From Deltaproteobacteria bacterium (GTDB taxonomy: Bacteria > Myxococcota_A > Polyangia > Polyangiales > B10-G4): a DNA stretch of 51,301 nucleotides. The stretch is taken from contig QMMC01000003.1 in NCBI GenBank assembly GCA_003647065.1, positions 1-51,301 of the forward strand. Direction: 5' to 3'. Of the stretch, positions 12,893 to 19,401 are shown one piece after another. Under the pieces are notes generated by a model. It was not told where the DNA came from. It worked only from the letters and a program-made list of their open reading frames with translations, and did no database searches. Every line of letters begins with the position of its first letter. The stretch's first letter is position 1. The position numbers were made by a program, and so were the translations under genes.

Positions 12893-13042
12893 GGCGTGGT
12901 TGGGGGTGCCTCCCGCGACAGTCAAAGCGTCCGGCCCCCGAGCGAGACCCGATACCCGCGACACCAACCCCGCCCCCCACAGCACCAACTCCGGCCGTCA
13001 CGTAACGAGCGCCCTGGAGCTGGAGGCACCCCCAACCACGCC
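12893..13042 (+). mobile_element. MITE-like element, copy B
   Basis: A 150 bp element in the opposite orientation to copy A. Its ends form a perfect 21 bp terminal inverted repeat (12893-12913 and 13022-13042; core TTGGGGGTGCCTCC). It differs from copy A by scattered substitutions only. The frame of the downstream gene happens to stay open through it, but the translation just follows the repeat. Confidence 0.55.
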
Positions 13043-13169
13043 GTCAACCCAGCGCACACCCCACCGTTCATGCAAGGCGCCATCCCAGAAGTCATCCCAT
13101 AAGTCATCCGAGAACGCCGTTCTAGCAGCCCATCTCCCGGCCCCAGCCTGTTATAGTCCAACCCCTCTG

Positions 13170-14309
13170 ATGGCGAGATCGTCGGTCATGCCCCCGCCGC
13201 CGGGGTACAAGCCCCTCGACCAGCTCACGTTGGCCGACCTCGAAGCGATTCGCATCCTGCTGCGCGGTGGGTCGGTGATCGACTGGCACCGGCTCAACTT
13301 CGAGGACGACGAGGCGGCCCGGGCATTTTTGTCCGCCCAAGAGCACCAGCACGACGACCCGGCGGACCACGCGCGGGCCGAAGCGGTGAAGAACTCTGCG
13401 ATCAGCTACCTGAGGCGCAACTTCGAATTCCCGATTCCGAAGCCCGTCGCCAACGCCGACGTGCCCGCCCTCCTGATGCTCGCGTCCAGCCGGGGGCACC
13501 GACAGCTCTGCGCCTGCACGATCCTGAAGGTGATGCACATCATCCATCACCTCGAGGCCCGCGAGCTGCTCTTCATGCTGCCGGTGTCGGACCAAGAGGT
13601 CTTCCACATGGTCGAGCAGAAGGTGTACCGCGTGATCGGGGCGATGCTCGCCCGGGGGCTACCGATCCTCGAGTTCATCGGCGGCCGCAAGAACAAGGAC
13701 TCGCTCTACACCAAGCTGCTCTCGAAGCAGGAGACGGTCGCCGCTCAAATCTACGACAAGCTGCGCTTTCGCATCGTGACCCGTGAACCCGATGACATCT
13801 TTCCGGTTCTCAGCTACCTGATGCGCGAGGTCTTCCCGTTCAACTACGTGATTCCCGGGGAGTCGACCAATACGCTCTTTCACTTCCGCAGCTACTGCGA
13901 AGGGCACGAGAACCTCGCACCCAAGCTCGACCGGCTGCAGCTCTCCCCCGATCTCGAAGGCGATGAGATCTGGGTCGACAACCGATTCACTGCCAAGGAC
14001 TACCGGGTCGTGCACTTCGTCGTGGACATGCCCGTCCGACTCCCCGACGAGATGATCGACGCCGCACCACCGGCGGCCTGGGCCCTCGGAAAAGTGATTT
14101 TCGTTCAGACCGAATTTCAGATCATCGACCGCGAAACAGAGCAGGCCAACGAGATGGGCACGGCGAGCCACGCCAGCTACAAGGACCGGCAAAAGATGGC
14201 CGTGATGCGTCGCCTGAAGGTCGGCCTCGAGGAGGCCCGCCCACGGCGCCGGAACGCCCCCGGGCCCCGAGCCACAAAGAAGACTCCGCGGGGCGGGAAG
14301 AAGAAATAG
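13170..14309 (+). CDS. RelA/SpoT-synthetase-like protein, resembling the TIGR04552 family
   Basis: 379 residues, soluble. The opening (LTLADLEAIRILLRGGSVIDWHRLNF) recalls the deltaproteobacterial TIGR04552 family of unknown function. From residue 171 the sequence tracks the (p)ppGpp synthetase fold: GGRKNKDSLYTKL (171-183), IYDKLRFRI (Y195, D196), DYRVVHF (Y278, H282) and TEFQIID (E315) then ANEMGTASHASYKDRQ. These correspond to the GRxKxxxSxxxK, YDxxxxR, GYxSLH and E-Q-I-R-T blocks; the Arg of the last block is Ile-Asp here. The C-terminus is a basic Lys/Arg tail. ATG 13170 is used because the frame upstream runs into the repeat element; ATG 13188 is an alternative. Nucleotide-binding activity is inference. 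Confidence 0.65.
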   Translation: MARSSVMPPPPGYKPLDQLTLADLEAIRILLRGGSVIDWHRLNFEDDEAARAFLSAQEHQHDDPADHARAEAVKNSAISYLRRNFEFPIPKPVANADVPALLMLASSRGHRQLCACTILKVMHIIHHLEARELLFMLPVSDQEVFHMVEQKVYRVIGAMLARGLPILEFIGGRKNKDSLYTKLLSKQETVAAQIYDKLRFRIVTREPDDIFPVLSYLMREVFPFNYVIPGESTNTLFHFRSYCEGHENLAPKLDRLQLSPDLEGDEIWVDNRFTAKDYRVVHFVVDMPVRLPDEMIDAAPPAAWALGKVIFVQTEFQIIDRETEQANEMGTASHASYKDRQKMAVMRRLKVGLEEARPRRRNAPGPRATKKTPRGGKKK

Positions 14310-14591: not shown

Positions 14592-14696
14592 TTGTCCTAC
14601 ATCCCTAGGTGGTGGTCCAGTAAGTAGCAGATCTGTGTGCGATCGGAAAGCCACAACGGTTGAATCGCGGCGCAAGTGGGCGACACTACGCCCCTC

Positions 14697-17069
14697 ATGA
14701 GTGACTCGGAGATTCCCGACGGCGAAGCCGTACTGCCGATCCTGCCCCTGCGCAACTCGGTGCTCTTCCCGGCATCGGTCGTACCCGTCAACGTCGGTCG
14801 TCCACGGTCGGTGCGCTTGATCGAAGAGGCGTTCGGTCAGGAGCGGCCGACGATCGGCGTCGTGGCCCAACGCAGGTTGGAGACCGAAGACCCCGACTTC
14901 CCGCAGGTGCATACCTTCGGCACGATCGCGCGAGTCCTGAAAGTGATTCGCCTGAGCTCGGGCAACTACAGCGTCGTGCTCCAGGGCGTGTCGCGCATGG
15001 AGATCATCGAGGGCATCGCCCAGTCGCCTTCCCTGCGAGCGCGCACGCGTCGGATTCATGAGACTCCGATGCGCAACGTCGAGATCGACGCCCTCGCGAC
15101 GAACCTTCGGGAGTCGATGCGCAAGCTGTCGACGATCCTTCCCGGGCAGTCACGGGAGGCGAGCCAAGTCCTCGACAACGTCCAGGACCCGGGATCCCTC
15201 GCCGACCTGGTCGCCAGCAACCTGCCGGTCGGGACCTCCGCCAAGCAGGAGGTCCTCGAGCTCCTCGACGTGCGTGAACGATTGCGTCGAGTCACCGAGC
15301 TCGTCACCCGCCAGGCAGAGGTCCACCGCGTCAAGAAGGAGATCTCGACGATGGTGCAGGAGGAGATGTCGCGCTCTCAGCGCGAATATCTACTCCGCCA
15401 GCAGATGAAGGAGATCCGACGCGAGCTCGGCGAAGGGGACGATGACGACGACGACATCGATAACCTGCGCGAACGCCTCGCCCGGGCCGAGCTCCCCCCC
15501 GAGGCCGAGCGCGCTGCCAAGAAGCAGCTCTCCCGCATGCGGTCGATGTCCCCGGCGGGCAGCGAGTACCACGTGTCACGGCAGTACGTGGAATGGCTGG
15601 CCGATCTGCCCTGGGGCAAAGTCACCGCCGATCGCCTCGACGTCAGCGAAGCGCGCCGGGTCCTCGACGAGGACCACCACGGCCTCGAGAAGATCAAGCG
15701 ACGCATCCTCGAATACATCGCCGTCCGCAAGCTCCGGAGCGACAAGAAGGGGCCCATCCTATGCCTCGTCGGCCCCCCCGGGGTCGGCAAGACGAGCCTC
15801 AGCAAGTCGATCGCCCGGGCGACCGGCCGAAACTTCACCCGCGTCGCCCTCGGCGGCGTACAGGACGAGGCCGAGATCCGAGGCCACCGACGAACGTACG
15901 TGGGCTCGTTCCCGGGACGGATCATCGGCGCCTTCAAGAAGGCAGGTTCGCGCAACCCGGTGATGCTCCTCGACGAGGTCGACAAGATGGGCCGCGACTT
16001 CCAGGGCGACCCCGGGAGTGCGCTCCTCGAGGTCCTCGACCCCGAACAAAATTCGGAGTTCGTCGACCACTACCTCGATGTGCCCTTCGATCTTTCGCAG
16101 GTGTTGTTCGTCGCGACGGCCAACCGGAAGGACACGATTCCCCGGCCCCTCCTCGATCGCATGGAGATGATCGAACTGCCCGGCTACACCCGCGAAGAGA
16201 AACTCGCGATCGCGCAGCAGTTCTTGATCCCGAAGCAGCTCTCCGAGCACGGGCTGTCTCCGGAGCGACTCGAGTTCCTCGAGTCGGGCGTCGACAAGCT
16301 CGTCGACGAGTACACCCGGGAAGCCGGCGTTCGAAAACTCGAGCAGATGGTGGCGGCCGTATGCCGCGCCGTCGCGGTGCGCCTCGCCCACGGCGAAGAC
16401 GTGATGGAAAAGGCCGGCCCGGAGTTCGTCGAGGACGTCCTCGGCCCGCCGCGGATCAAGCCCCAGATGGTCGAACGTCACGGGAAGGCCGGCGTCGCGA
16501 CCGGCCTGTCGTGGACGCCCTCGGGCGGCGACCTGATGTTCGTGGAGTCCCAACGCATGCCCGGGAAGGGTCGAATCCACCTCACCGGAAACATGGGTGG
16601 CATTCTCAAGGAGTCGGTCGCCACCGCGTTCACCTACATTCGAGCACGACCGGAGAAACTCGGCCTGCCGGAAGATTTCCTGTCGAAGATCGACGTGCAC
16701 GTGCACCTTCCCCAGGGCGCGGTGAAAAAGGACGGCGCGGCGGCGGGCATGGCGATCTTCGTATCCCTCGCCTCGATGCTCACCCGCCTCGAAGCCCGGC
16801 CGGATGTCGCCATGAGCGGCGAAGTCACGCTTCGGGGCGCTGTGCTCAAGGTCACCGGCATCAAGTCCAAGTGCCTCGCCGCCCACCGTGCGGGGATCAA
16901 ACACGTGATCCTCCCGAAGCGAAACGAGCCCGACCTCGACGATCTCCCCGATACGGTGCGCAAGGGCCTCACGATCCATCTCGTCTCGAAGGTCAGCGAG
17001 GTTCTCGAGCTGGCCCTCGTGATGGAGTCACCGGAAGCCACCGCGGCACCGGCTGCTCCGCCGGCCTGA
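14697..17069 (+). CDS. lon: Lon-family ATPase lacking the catalytic serine
   Basis: 790 residues, full Lon length. The N-terminal LON substrate domain starts LPILPLRNSVLFP and runs to about 205, then a coiled region with an Asp-rich stretch (GDDDDDDID). The AAA+ module has Walker A GPPGVGKT (359-366) and Walker B MLLDEVD (423-429). In the protease domain the canonical KDGPSAG reads KDGAAAG, so the nucleophile position (residue 682, codon 16740-16742) is Ala; the dyad lysine is kept (K723, TGIKSKCLAA). An ATP-driven unfoldase, chaperone or DNA-binding role without proteolysis is inferred. ATG 14697 is used; GTG 14676 is in frame. Neither has a good ribosome binding site. Confidence 0.9.
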   Translation: MSDSEIPDGEAVLPILPLRNSVLFPASVVPVNVGRPRSVRLIEEAFGQERPTIGVVAQRRLETEDPDFPQVHTFGTIARVLKVIRLSSGNYSVVLQGVSRMEIIEGIAQSPSLRARTRRIHETPMRNVEIDALATNLRESMRKLSTILPGQSREASQVLDNVQDPGSLADLVASNLPVGTSAKQEVLELLDVRERLRRVTELVTRQAEVHRVKKEISTMVQEEMSRSQREYLLRQQMKEIRRELGEGDDDDDDIDNLRERLARAELPPEAERAAKKQLSRMRSMSPAGSEYHVSRQYVEWLADLPWGKVTADRLDVSEARRVLDEDHHGLEKIKRRILEYIAVRKLRSDKKGPILCLVGPPGVGKTSLSKSIARATGRNFTRVALGGVQDEAEIRGHRRTYVGSFPGRIIGAFKKAGSRNPVMLLDEVDKMGRDFQGDPGSALLEVLDPEQNSEFVDHYLDVPFDLSQVLFVATANRKDTIPRPLLDRMEMIELPGYTREEKLAIAQQFLIPKQLSEHGLSPERLEFLESGVDKLVDEYTREAGVRKLEQMVAAVCRAVAVRLAHGEDVMEKAGPEFVEDVLGPPRIKPQMVERHGKAGVATGLSWTPSGGDLMFVESQRMPGKGRIHLTGNMGGILKESVATAFTYIRARPEKLGLPEDFLSKIDVHVHLPQGAVKKDGAAAGMAIFVSLASMLTRLEARPDVAMSGEVTLRGAVLKVTGIKSKCLAAHRAGIKHVILPKRNEPDLDDLPDTVRKGLTIHLVSKVSEVLELALVMESPEATAAPAAPPA

Positions 17070-17085
17070 CGATCACTCTCGGACG

Positions 17086-19401
17086 ATGGTGCATCTTCTC
17101 GAGACGACGAGCGCGAAGTTAGCGCTCAGCGTCGCGACGATCGCCGGACTGGCCATGTGCGCCTCGCCCTTGACCGGCGTACACGGCGTCGAGAGTGGTC
17201 TGGTCCTCGGGGTGCTCCTCCCGCCATTCATCGCCGCCGCGGCTGCGCGCATGACGGTGAGTCGGCGCCGCCGGGGGATGCCACTCCCGGCGCTCGACGT
17301 CGTCGCCTTCGCCGTCGGGATGGCGACGGTCGTGGTCGCCGCGCCGTTGCTCCTGCTTTTCATCAACACCGTGCGCTTCCGGCAGTGCACGCCGGGCCTG
17401 GGCCTCGCTTTCGTGGTCCTCGGGCCCGTCCTCGGCGCCTACGCAGCGGCAACCCTCGGAGCCCTGAGCGCCATCGTGATCCCCCGGCCGCGCCTGAGCA
17501 CCTGGGTGGCGACGCTCTTGCCCCTCCTGGCTATCGGCACCGGGCTCTACCGGTTCTGGAGTACCCCGGCGATCTTCGTCTACGGACTCTTCGCCGGATG
17601 GTTCCCCGGGACGATCTACGACGAAGGCACGACCGTACCGATCGCGTACCTGACCTTCCGCGTGGGCACCGTTGCCCTCCTCCTGGGCCTGACCCTCCTA
17701 GCGGCCCGGGGCCTGACCCCGACCGAGGGGAGGATCTCACCACGGCGATTGCTGCGGACCCCCTTGGGCAGCGCCCTCGCACTGATGCTCATCGCCGGCG
17801 CCGGCGTCATCCACGCCGAAGGAGAAGCCCTCGGCCACCGGAGCTCGGCGGAGTTCATCGCAAGAGAGCTCGGGACGACGATCCGCGGCGAGCGGTGCGT
17901 CGTGCACGCGCCCCGGGAAATCCGCCGCGGGAACCTCAGGCGCCTGGTCGCCGACTGCGATTTCCGGGTCACCCAGGCCGAAGAAATCCTCGGGGTGAAC
18001 CAAACGCAACCGGTCACGGCGTTCTTCTTTCGCAGCGCCGACGAGAAGCGCCGATACATGGGCGCCGGCCGCACCTACATCGCCGAACCATGGCGGAACG
18101 AGGTGTACCTCCAGCTCGGCCGATGGCCTCACCCGGTGCTCTTCCACGAGGTCGTGCACGTGGTCGCCGGAAATACCGCCGCCGGCCCTTTCCGGGTCGG
18201 AGGTCAGCTCGGCGGATACCTGCCCGACCCGTCGCTCATCGAAGGGGTCGCCGTCGCCGTCGCGTGGAATGAACGCGATGGGCTCACTCCCCACCAATGG
18301 GCCAAGGCGATGGTGGAGCTCGAGCTGATGCCGCCCCTCGACGCGGTCTTCGGCCTCTCGTTTCTCGGCCAGCCCGCGAGCAACGCCTACACCATCTCCG
18401 GCTCCTTCATACGCTACCTGCTCGACGAGCACGGGGCAGGGGTGATCCGCGACGCGTATCTACACGGCGACGTCGCCGCCGCCGCGGGCTTGCCCCTCGA
18501 CGAACTCGAGCGGGGCTACCGAGCCTACCTCGACACGGTCGAGGTCCCCGAGGAAGCCCTGGCCCTCGCCCGGGTGCGCTTCGAGCGCGTCAGTATCTTT
18601 TCGGCGGTCTGCCCACACCTCGTCGCGCGGCTCCGGGGTCAACTCGGCGGGGACCTCGCCGCCGGGGATGCCGAGGCGGCCATCGCCACTTGCGAAGAGT
18701 TGCTCGCCATCGACGAGAACGATGTCGCCACCCGCGCGCGCTACGCCGGTGCCCTCGCCCGAGCCGGTCGGGACGACGAGGCCGCCGCGGTTCTGACACG
18801 CCTCGGCGGGGACCCGCCGGCACCGGCGCCGATCATCGCCCTCGGCGAGGAGGCCGTCGCCGACGCGGCCTGGCTCGCCGGCGACGGAGATGGCGCGGCC
18901 CGGAGATACGGCGCACTCATCCTTCGACCTCAGACCGAGGGCGCGCGGCGTAACCTCGAGGTGAAAATGCTCGCGGCCGACGCGGGCCCCTCGGCCGACG
19001 CGAGCCGCATCCTCGACATCCTCGTCGGTGCCGACGGCGTGCCCGCCGACCGCGCCGTCGCCGTGCACCACGACCGGGAGCTCGCAGTGAGCCGCCCCGA
19101 CGGCCTCGGGGCCTACCTCGAGGCCCGCCAGCTAATGGCCAGCGGACGCTACGACCTGGCCCTCCCACGAATCCGCGAAGCCGGCGATCGGGGCCTCGCC
19201 ACCCGCCTCTTGCGGCGGGAACACCAGCGAATGCTGGGAGCAACCCTCGTCGCCGTCGGCGACCTCGCCGAGGCCCGTCGAATCTTCGAGGCCATCCGCG
19301 ACGGGGCGGGAGAAGACACGGGTGACCGCGTCCAGGCCAACGATTGGCTAGCCCGCCTCGACTACCTGAGCCGAACCCGCACCGCCTACGCGGGGCGATA
19401 G
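17086..19401 (+). CDS. Membrane protein with gluzincin-like peptidase and TPR regions
   Basis: 771 residues in three parts. Residues 1-250 hold about seven hydrophobic segments. The middle has HEVVH (354-358, in VLFHEVVHVVAG) and a downstream acidic ligand E386 (SLIEGVAVAVAW), the spacing of a gluzincin zinc site as in peptidase MA-like domains. From about 470 the sequence is Ala/Leu/Glu-rich with TPR-like helix pairs (AAIATCEELLAIDENDVATRARYAGALARAGRDDEA). The catalytic part should face the periplasm. It starts 16 bases after lon, so co-transcription is likely. It nearly abuts the convergent exbD gene (4 bases between stops). Substrate unknown. Confidence 0.65.
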   Translation: MVHLLETTSAKLALSVATIAGLAMCASPLTGVHGVESGLVLGVLLPPFIAAAAARMTVSRRRRGMPLPALDVVAFAVGMATVVVAAPLLLLFINTVRFRQCTPGLGLAFVVLGPVLGAYAAATLGALSAIVIPRPRLSTWVATLLPLLAIGTGLYRFWSTPAIFVYGLFAGWFPGTIYDEGTTVPIAYLTFRVGTVALLLGLTLLAARGLTPTEGRISPRRLLRTPLGSALALMLIAGAGVIHAEGEALGHRSSAEFIARELGTTIRGERCVVHAPREIRRGNLRRLVADCDFRVTQAEEILGVNQTQPVTAFFFRSADEKRRYMGAGRTYIAEPWRNEVYLQLGRWPHPVLFHEVVHVVAGNTAAGPFRVGGQLGGYLPDPSLIEGVAVAVAWNERDGLTPHQWAKAMVELELMPPLDAVFGLSFLGQPASNAYTISGSFIRYLLDEHGAGVIRDAYLHGDVAAAAGLPLDELERGYRAYLDTVEVPEEALALARVRFERVSIFSAVCPHLVARLRGQLGGDLAAGDAEAAIATCEELLAIDENDVATRARYAGALARAGRDDEAAAVLTRLGGDPPAPAPIIALGEEAVADAAWLAGDGDGAARRYGALILRPQTEGARRNLEVKMLAADAGPSADASRILDILVGADGVPADRAVAVHHDRELAVSRPDGLGAYLEARQLMASGRYDLALPRIREAGDRGLATRLLRREHQRMLGATLVAVGDLAEARRIFEAIRDGAGEDTGDRVQANDWLARLDYLSRTRTAYAGR

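Follow-up and report, generated by a model that had tools for sequence, protein, structure and literature searches.

A full-length LonA orthologue of Polyangiales with alanine in place of the catalytic serine: a putative Lon pseudoprotease under purifying selection

The Lon gene and its protease site

The window analysed here is a 51,301-nucleotide stretch of contig QMMC01000003.1 (C3) from a 7.1-Mb draft genome of 594 contigs (GCA_003647065.1, order Polyangiales), and the subject of this work is a gene within it that encodes a full-length Lon protein lacking the catalytic serine. Translation of positions 14697-17069 gives an uninterrupted LonA reading frame of 790 amino acids (Table 1), with a GTG at position 14676 as a possible alternative start. 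The protein matches the equivalog profile TIGR00763 with 906 bits against a cut-off of 608, and Pfam assigns LON_substr_bdg, AAA, Lon_lid and Lon_C, which places the N domain, AAA+ module, lid and S16 protease domain of the LonA family in a single chain.

Residue 682 aligns with the catalytic serine of E. coli Lon (S679; L091) and of other LonA proteins, the residue whose S-to-A substitution is used in the field as the protease-dead form of LonA. In the window protein it is alanine, and the motif reads KDGAAAG against KDGPSAG in active LonA, leaving Lys723, Asp679 and Glu709 in place. Because the Ser-Lys dyad that defines an active LonA protease lacks its Ser, the protein, a LonA by descent, is classed from its sequence as a putative Lon pseudoprotease and not as a protease. 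The motor, by contrast with the dyad, is intact in its Walker A and B motifs, sensor, Arg finger and pore-loop Tyr. An AlphaFold monomer model (predicted local distance difference test score, pLDDT, 73.9; predicted template modelling score, pTM, 0.35) was too poor for active-site geometry.

An earlier note on this DNA, made from the letters alone, had described a full-length Lon with alanine at residue 682, both Walker motifs and the dyad Lys kept, and translation and alignment bear this out, with Walker B now placed at the residues given in Table 1. Its statement that only the nucleophile had been lost did not hold: relative to intact orthologues the window protein also carries P681A, T707S, G720T and E724S, residue 636 is Ile where intact orthologues have Val, and across the clade relaxation extends to the entire surroundings of the catalytic site.

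A search of the genome for a second, intact lon returned two other full Lons (L064 and L065, on contigs C40 and C70), both with KDGPSAG and the dyad Lys, and one partial Lon (L066), which is 53% identical to the window Lon and ends with contig C562 before the protease site. The window Lon shares only about 44-53% identity with these paralogues.

Table 1. Positions of the Lon gene, its domains and key residues, and its neighbours in the window
Feature	Residues	Position	Strand	Basis or remark
Conserved upstream neighbour, TIGR04552 family (RelA/SpoT-like region)		12900..14309	+	
Putative Lon pseudoprotease gene, 790 amino acids		14697..17069	+	Translation, Pfam, NCBIfam
LON substrate-binding N domain	12-205	14730..15311	+	Pfam PF02190, E 1.9e-45
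AAA+ ATPase domain	355-492	15759..16172	+	Pfam
Walker A	359-366	15771-15794	+	Kept
Walker B	422-427	15960-15977	+	Kept
Lon_C (S16) protease domain without nucleophile	576-775	16422..17021	+	Pfam PF05362, 246.6 bits
Codon GCG (Ala) at the LonA catalytic Ser column (E. coli Lon S679)	682	16740..16742	+	Alignment
Dyad Lys, retained	723	16863..16865	+	Translation, alignment
Coupled gene, membrane protein with seven transmembrane helices and C-terminal TPR repeats		17086..19401	+	16 bases 3' of Lon
HEVVH of coupled protein		18145-18159	+	
Glu of coupled protein	386	18241-18243	+	

Distribution of the serine loss and constraint on the protein

Of 184 genomes from the order Polyangiales (Myxococcota), 138 contain a match at E < 1e-279, and in an alignment of 95 Polyangiales orthologues the catalytic Ser is absent from 31, being replaced by Ala in 30 and by Gly in one. 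On a tree of the 95 sequences, from which the catalytic columns were left out, Fitch parsimony assigns a minimum of 8 changes to the Ser column, and a loss-only count that allows no regain gives 10 losses, or 9 with weak branches collapsed. Loss of the serine as a single event is thus not upheld, the reconstruction indicating at least 8 changes. Orthologues came from 11 family-level groups, five of which include Ser-less ones: all seven sequences of f9, the single sequence of f4, 18 of 28 in f5, four of nine in f3, and the only sequence of f1, which is that of the window. The site is intact in f6, f8 and most of f12; f11, f2 and f7 retain Ser in an altered motif, and in f11 the dyad Lys is also replaced by Arg.

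A former conclusion from a 63-row tree, that no member of the clade has a canonical site, was dropped when wider sampling gave intact L172, L177 and L179 in f5, and on the strength of these three the losses are taken to be several and of later date. TCG Ser codons nested among Ala members at first resembled reversions, but TCG also occurs in intact f5 members and parallel loss is as likely.

As a control, readable Lons from many phyla were inspected among the matches listed, and 76 of 79 carry KDGPSAG, the three exceptions being members of this clade; among these matches the motif is therefore present in all 76 readable Lons from outside the clade. The Lons recovered from elsewhere in the class or phylum, outside the order, have an intact site. 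Given that the Ser loss is common to relatives while 76 of 76 non-clade Lons keep the motif, chance or error is unlikely, and an error of sequencing or assembly was rejected on the further ground that adjoining catalytic positions have changed as well.

Other alterations of the Lon site were observed in the order. A second, parallel erosion is seen in family f12 (L061, L213-L215, L219, L221, L246, L251 and L253), where the Ser stays and the KDGP loop is changed, mostly to xDAAS, some of these Lons having an altered dyad Lys or altered neighbours of it. The dyad Lys is replaced by Arg in L067 and L068 (family f11) and in L254, and by Thr in L218; L218 and L254 retain KDGPSAG despite this change.

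Selection was estimated by the Nei-Gojobori method, pooled over 62 close pairs, in genus g5, where KDGAAAG is the usual motif, and the ratio of non-synonymous to synonymous substitution rates (dN/dS), a figure for g5 and not for the window's own genus, was 0.063 for the whole protein, 0.045 for the AAA+ domain and 0.070 for the protease domain. These values point to strong purifying selection in the lineage, the protease domain included, and the combination looked for in a pseudoprotease lineage, a lost catalytic residue with purifying selection on fold and sequence, was found. All 31 Ser-less orthologues keep Walker A (the sole exception being one conservative Thr-to-Ser change), the pore-loop T-Y-V-G (Tyr401) and the Walker B D-E, and Asn476, Asp487/Arg488 and Arg546 (beyond the AAA+ domain) are also unchanged in all 31. 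Pseudogene formation or decay was rejected, as the earlier note had held, since the frame is uninterrupted, dN/dS is 0.06 in g5 and the ATPase residues are invariant.

Relaxation is instead concentrated around the protease site. Among positions fixed in 40 intact orthologues, 7 of 20 in the catalytic loops are relaxed in the Ser-less ones against 10 of 225 elsewhere (Fisher p about 1e-4, with Ser682 counted though it is itself group-defining), and the relaxed loop positions include P681, A683, T707, G720 and V636. By their distance from the Ser, P681 and V636 match P854 and V809 of human LONP1, where Ala mutants are severely impaired in proteolysis and little affected in ATP hydrolysis (PMC8163871). 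Because the ATPase residues are fixed while catalytic-loop positions are relaxed, the constraint on cutting appears to have been released and that on the motor retained.

The coupled membrane protein and the gene neighbourhood

The gene that follows Lon was described in the earlier note as encoding a membrane metallopeptidase-TPR protein, and this description stands: the gene is coupled to Lon, and the HExxH...E zinc site of its product is unchanged throughout 38 orthologues. Two Cys pairs (271/291 and 509/536) are conserved, a structure model has a pLDDT of 89.8 and a pTM of 0.89, and weak fold matches were obtained to the peptidase unit of clostridial collagenase G and to BepA. Hydropathy, loop charge, the conserved Cys pairs and the structure model together suggest that a gluzincin-like zinc domain follows the seventh transmembrane helix and most likely lies in the periplasm, and therefore that the protein is probably not the blade of a Lon chamber. 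Of 19 orthologues, 18 drew no peptidase family from Pfam and one gave PF13485 at E 0.074, and the proteins look like an undescribed family.

This partner lies directly 3' of Lon in 58 of the 75 loci with enough flank. It is present beside 46 of 50 Lons with a degenerate site and 12 of 25 intact Lons, a raw association that is not significant on independent pairs, which provide too few contrasts. The TIGR04552 gene is often 5' of Lon across loci; it is on the same strand as Lon in the window and divergent in relatives where seen, as if this gene alone had been inverted in place. Convergent exbB/exbD genes lie further 3' at many of the loci.

Interpretation and relation to known systems

The best reading, with a probability of roughly 0.6, is that the protein is a Lon pseudoprotease kept by selection and used as an ATP-driven unfoldase or chaperone, because its frame is intact, comparative data indicate strong purifying selection, and two intact Lons are encoded elsewhere in the genome. 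Of the reuses proposed in the earlier note, which also included a DNA-binding factor, unfoldase or chaperone is preferred and dominant regulation of an active Lon is the chief rival. The pseudo-Lon would assemble as a LonA ring whose N domain binds substrates, and ATP would be used to pull on, unfold or remodel these substrates, which would then be released uncut; the protease domain would be retained as a ring-forming scaffold, and the proteolysis of the cell would be left to the other Lon paralogues. Engineered mutants offer a precedent for this part of the reading: human LONP1 S855A still prevents aggregation, whereas LONP1 ATPase (Walker) mutants do not (PMC8368198), and LonA S678A assembles into closed hexameric rings with bound substrate (PDB 7ypk). 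The coupled membrane protein hints, weakly, that the job may have to do with proteins of the envelope or with envelope stress.

Several points weigh against use as an unfoldase. Some members of the clade hold Ser in a changed motif (PSGG, ASAG or PSTG) and the three f5 members named above have the full site, so that proteolysis may still be important to some of the lineage. Nearly every member has the dyad Lys, although a fully abandoned site would have no need of it. Ring formation by the window protein is assumed, and much the same sequence signature would be expected if it mixed with an active Lon in a dominant-negative way. A larger claim is tentative and probably too strong: that the order-wide orthologue has turned into a dedicated ATP-driven unfoldase and works as one unit with the coupled zinc-peptidase/TPR protein, membrane-embedded and periplasmic, proteolysis having been given up many times independently because selection acts on the motor.

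In the chief rival, Ser-less subunits would co-assemble with one or more active paralogues and lower or redirect proteolysis, or would compete with them for substrates. Active paralogues do occur in the same genomes, and LONP1 S855A is dominant negative for TFAM degradation (PMC8368198), but mixed rings are less certain at 44-53% paralogue identity, and a pure poison subunit would need no conserved sensor, Arg finger or pore loop, although a competing unfoldase would; such regulation is judged unlikely. Less plausible still is a two-part protease in which the pseudo-Lon unfolds and delivers substrates and the coupled metallopeptidase cleaves them. The adjacency of the partner at 58 of 75 loci, 46 of the 50 degenerate-site loci among them, its invariant zinc site and its absence beside 13 of 25 intact Lons, more often than beside degenerate ones, would fit this arrangement. 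However, the partner also adjoins intact Lons at 12 loci, four degenerate Lons do without it, the association falls short of significance when independent pairs are compared, and the peptidase domain, with seven transmembrane helices and Cys pairs, is predicted to be periplasmic and away from the cytoplasmic Lon chamber. The suggestion in the earlier note that this neighbour directly supplies the missing proteolysis is accordingly not favoured.

A recent neutral loss, in which a redundant paralogue with a drifting protease site is on its way out, would explain the alternation of Ala, Ser and Gly and the varied residues at 683 and 720, which resemble relaxed constraint. It is already contradicted by a dN/dS of 0.06 over the whole protein in g5, by invariant ATPase residues, by a single reading frame in almost every member across many families and by an order-wide gene order, and is given very little credence. 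Continued proteolysis through another nucleophile or residual activity is similarly far-fetched: Lys723, Asp679 and Glu709 remain, but the KDGAAAG loop offers no Ser, Thr or Cys, the equivalents of the loop-stabilising P681 and V636 have changed too, and engineered S-to-A LonA serves the field as its protease-dead form (PDB 6u5z, 7ypk).

Use as an unfoldase or chaperone, the preferred reading, bears on the open question of whether Lon has an important proteolysis-free job, for which engineered S-to-A mutants have so far been the main material. A natural lineage with an intact motor and repeated loss of the nucleophile indicates that such a job apparently exists and is worth keeping, and a single order supplies matched intact and dead Lon orthologues for testing it. 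No account of a full-length LonA orthologue repeatedly losing its nucleophile across an order was found in open PubMed Central papers. What is already known comprises single inactive Lon homologues and the distant Lon-like domains of BrxL and RadA without a protease motif; a 2008 survey of 91 genomes, in its accessible portion, counts two putatively inactive members among 117 Lon homologues and does not discuss them (PMC2605481).

Among known systems, the closest are the LonA proteases themselves (MEROPS S16; E. coli Lon and Thermus Lon, PDB 7p6u), which share the order N domain, coil, AAA+, lid and protease domain, Thermus Lon being about 46% identical to the window Lon over the whole length; unlike active LonA, the window Lon lacks the catalytic Ser and has broken GPSAG and GGxK motifs. 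Engineered dead Lons (E. coli S679A, LonA S678A in PDB 7ypj/7ypk, and LONP1 S855A) have had the same side chain removed and keep their ATPase, whereas the loss described here is natural, recurs across families and is accompanied by further catalytic-loop changes. FtsHi proteins of Arabidopsis are likewise members of an AAA+ protease family termed pseudo-proteases, in the available part of the source (PMC8197885), but they belong to a metalloprotease family of plant organelles with a protease-domain fold other than that of Lon. BREX BrxL and RadA/Sms join an ATPase motor to a Lon-type C-terminal domain without the protease motif (PMC10164562); the window Lon gave no full-length match of either type (46.4 bits to TIGR02653 against a cut-off of 628, and 34.2 to TIGR00416 against 403) and differs from both in having the N domain and AAA+ module of LonA.
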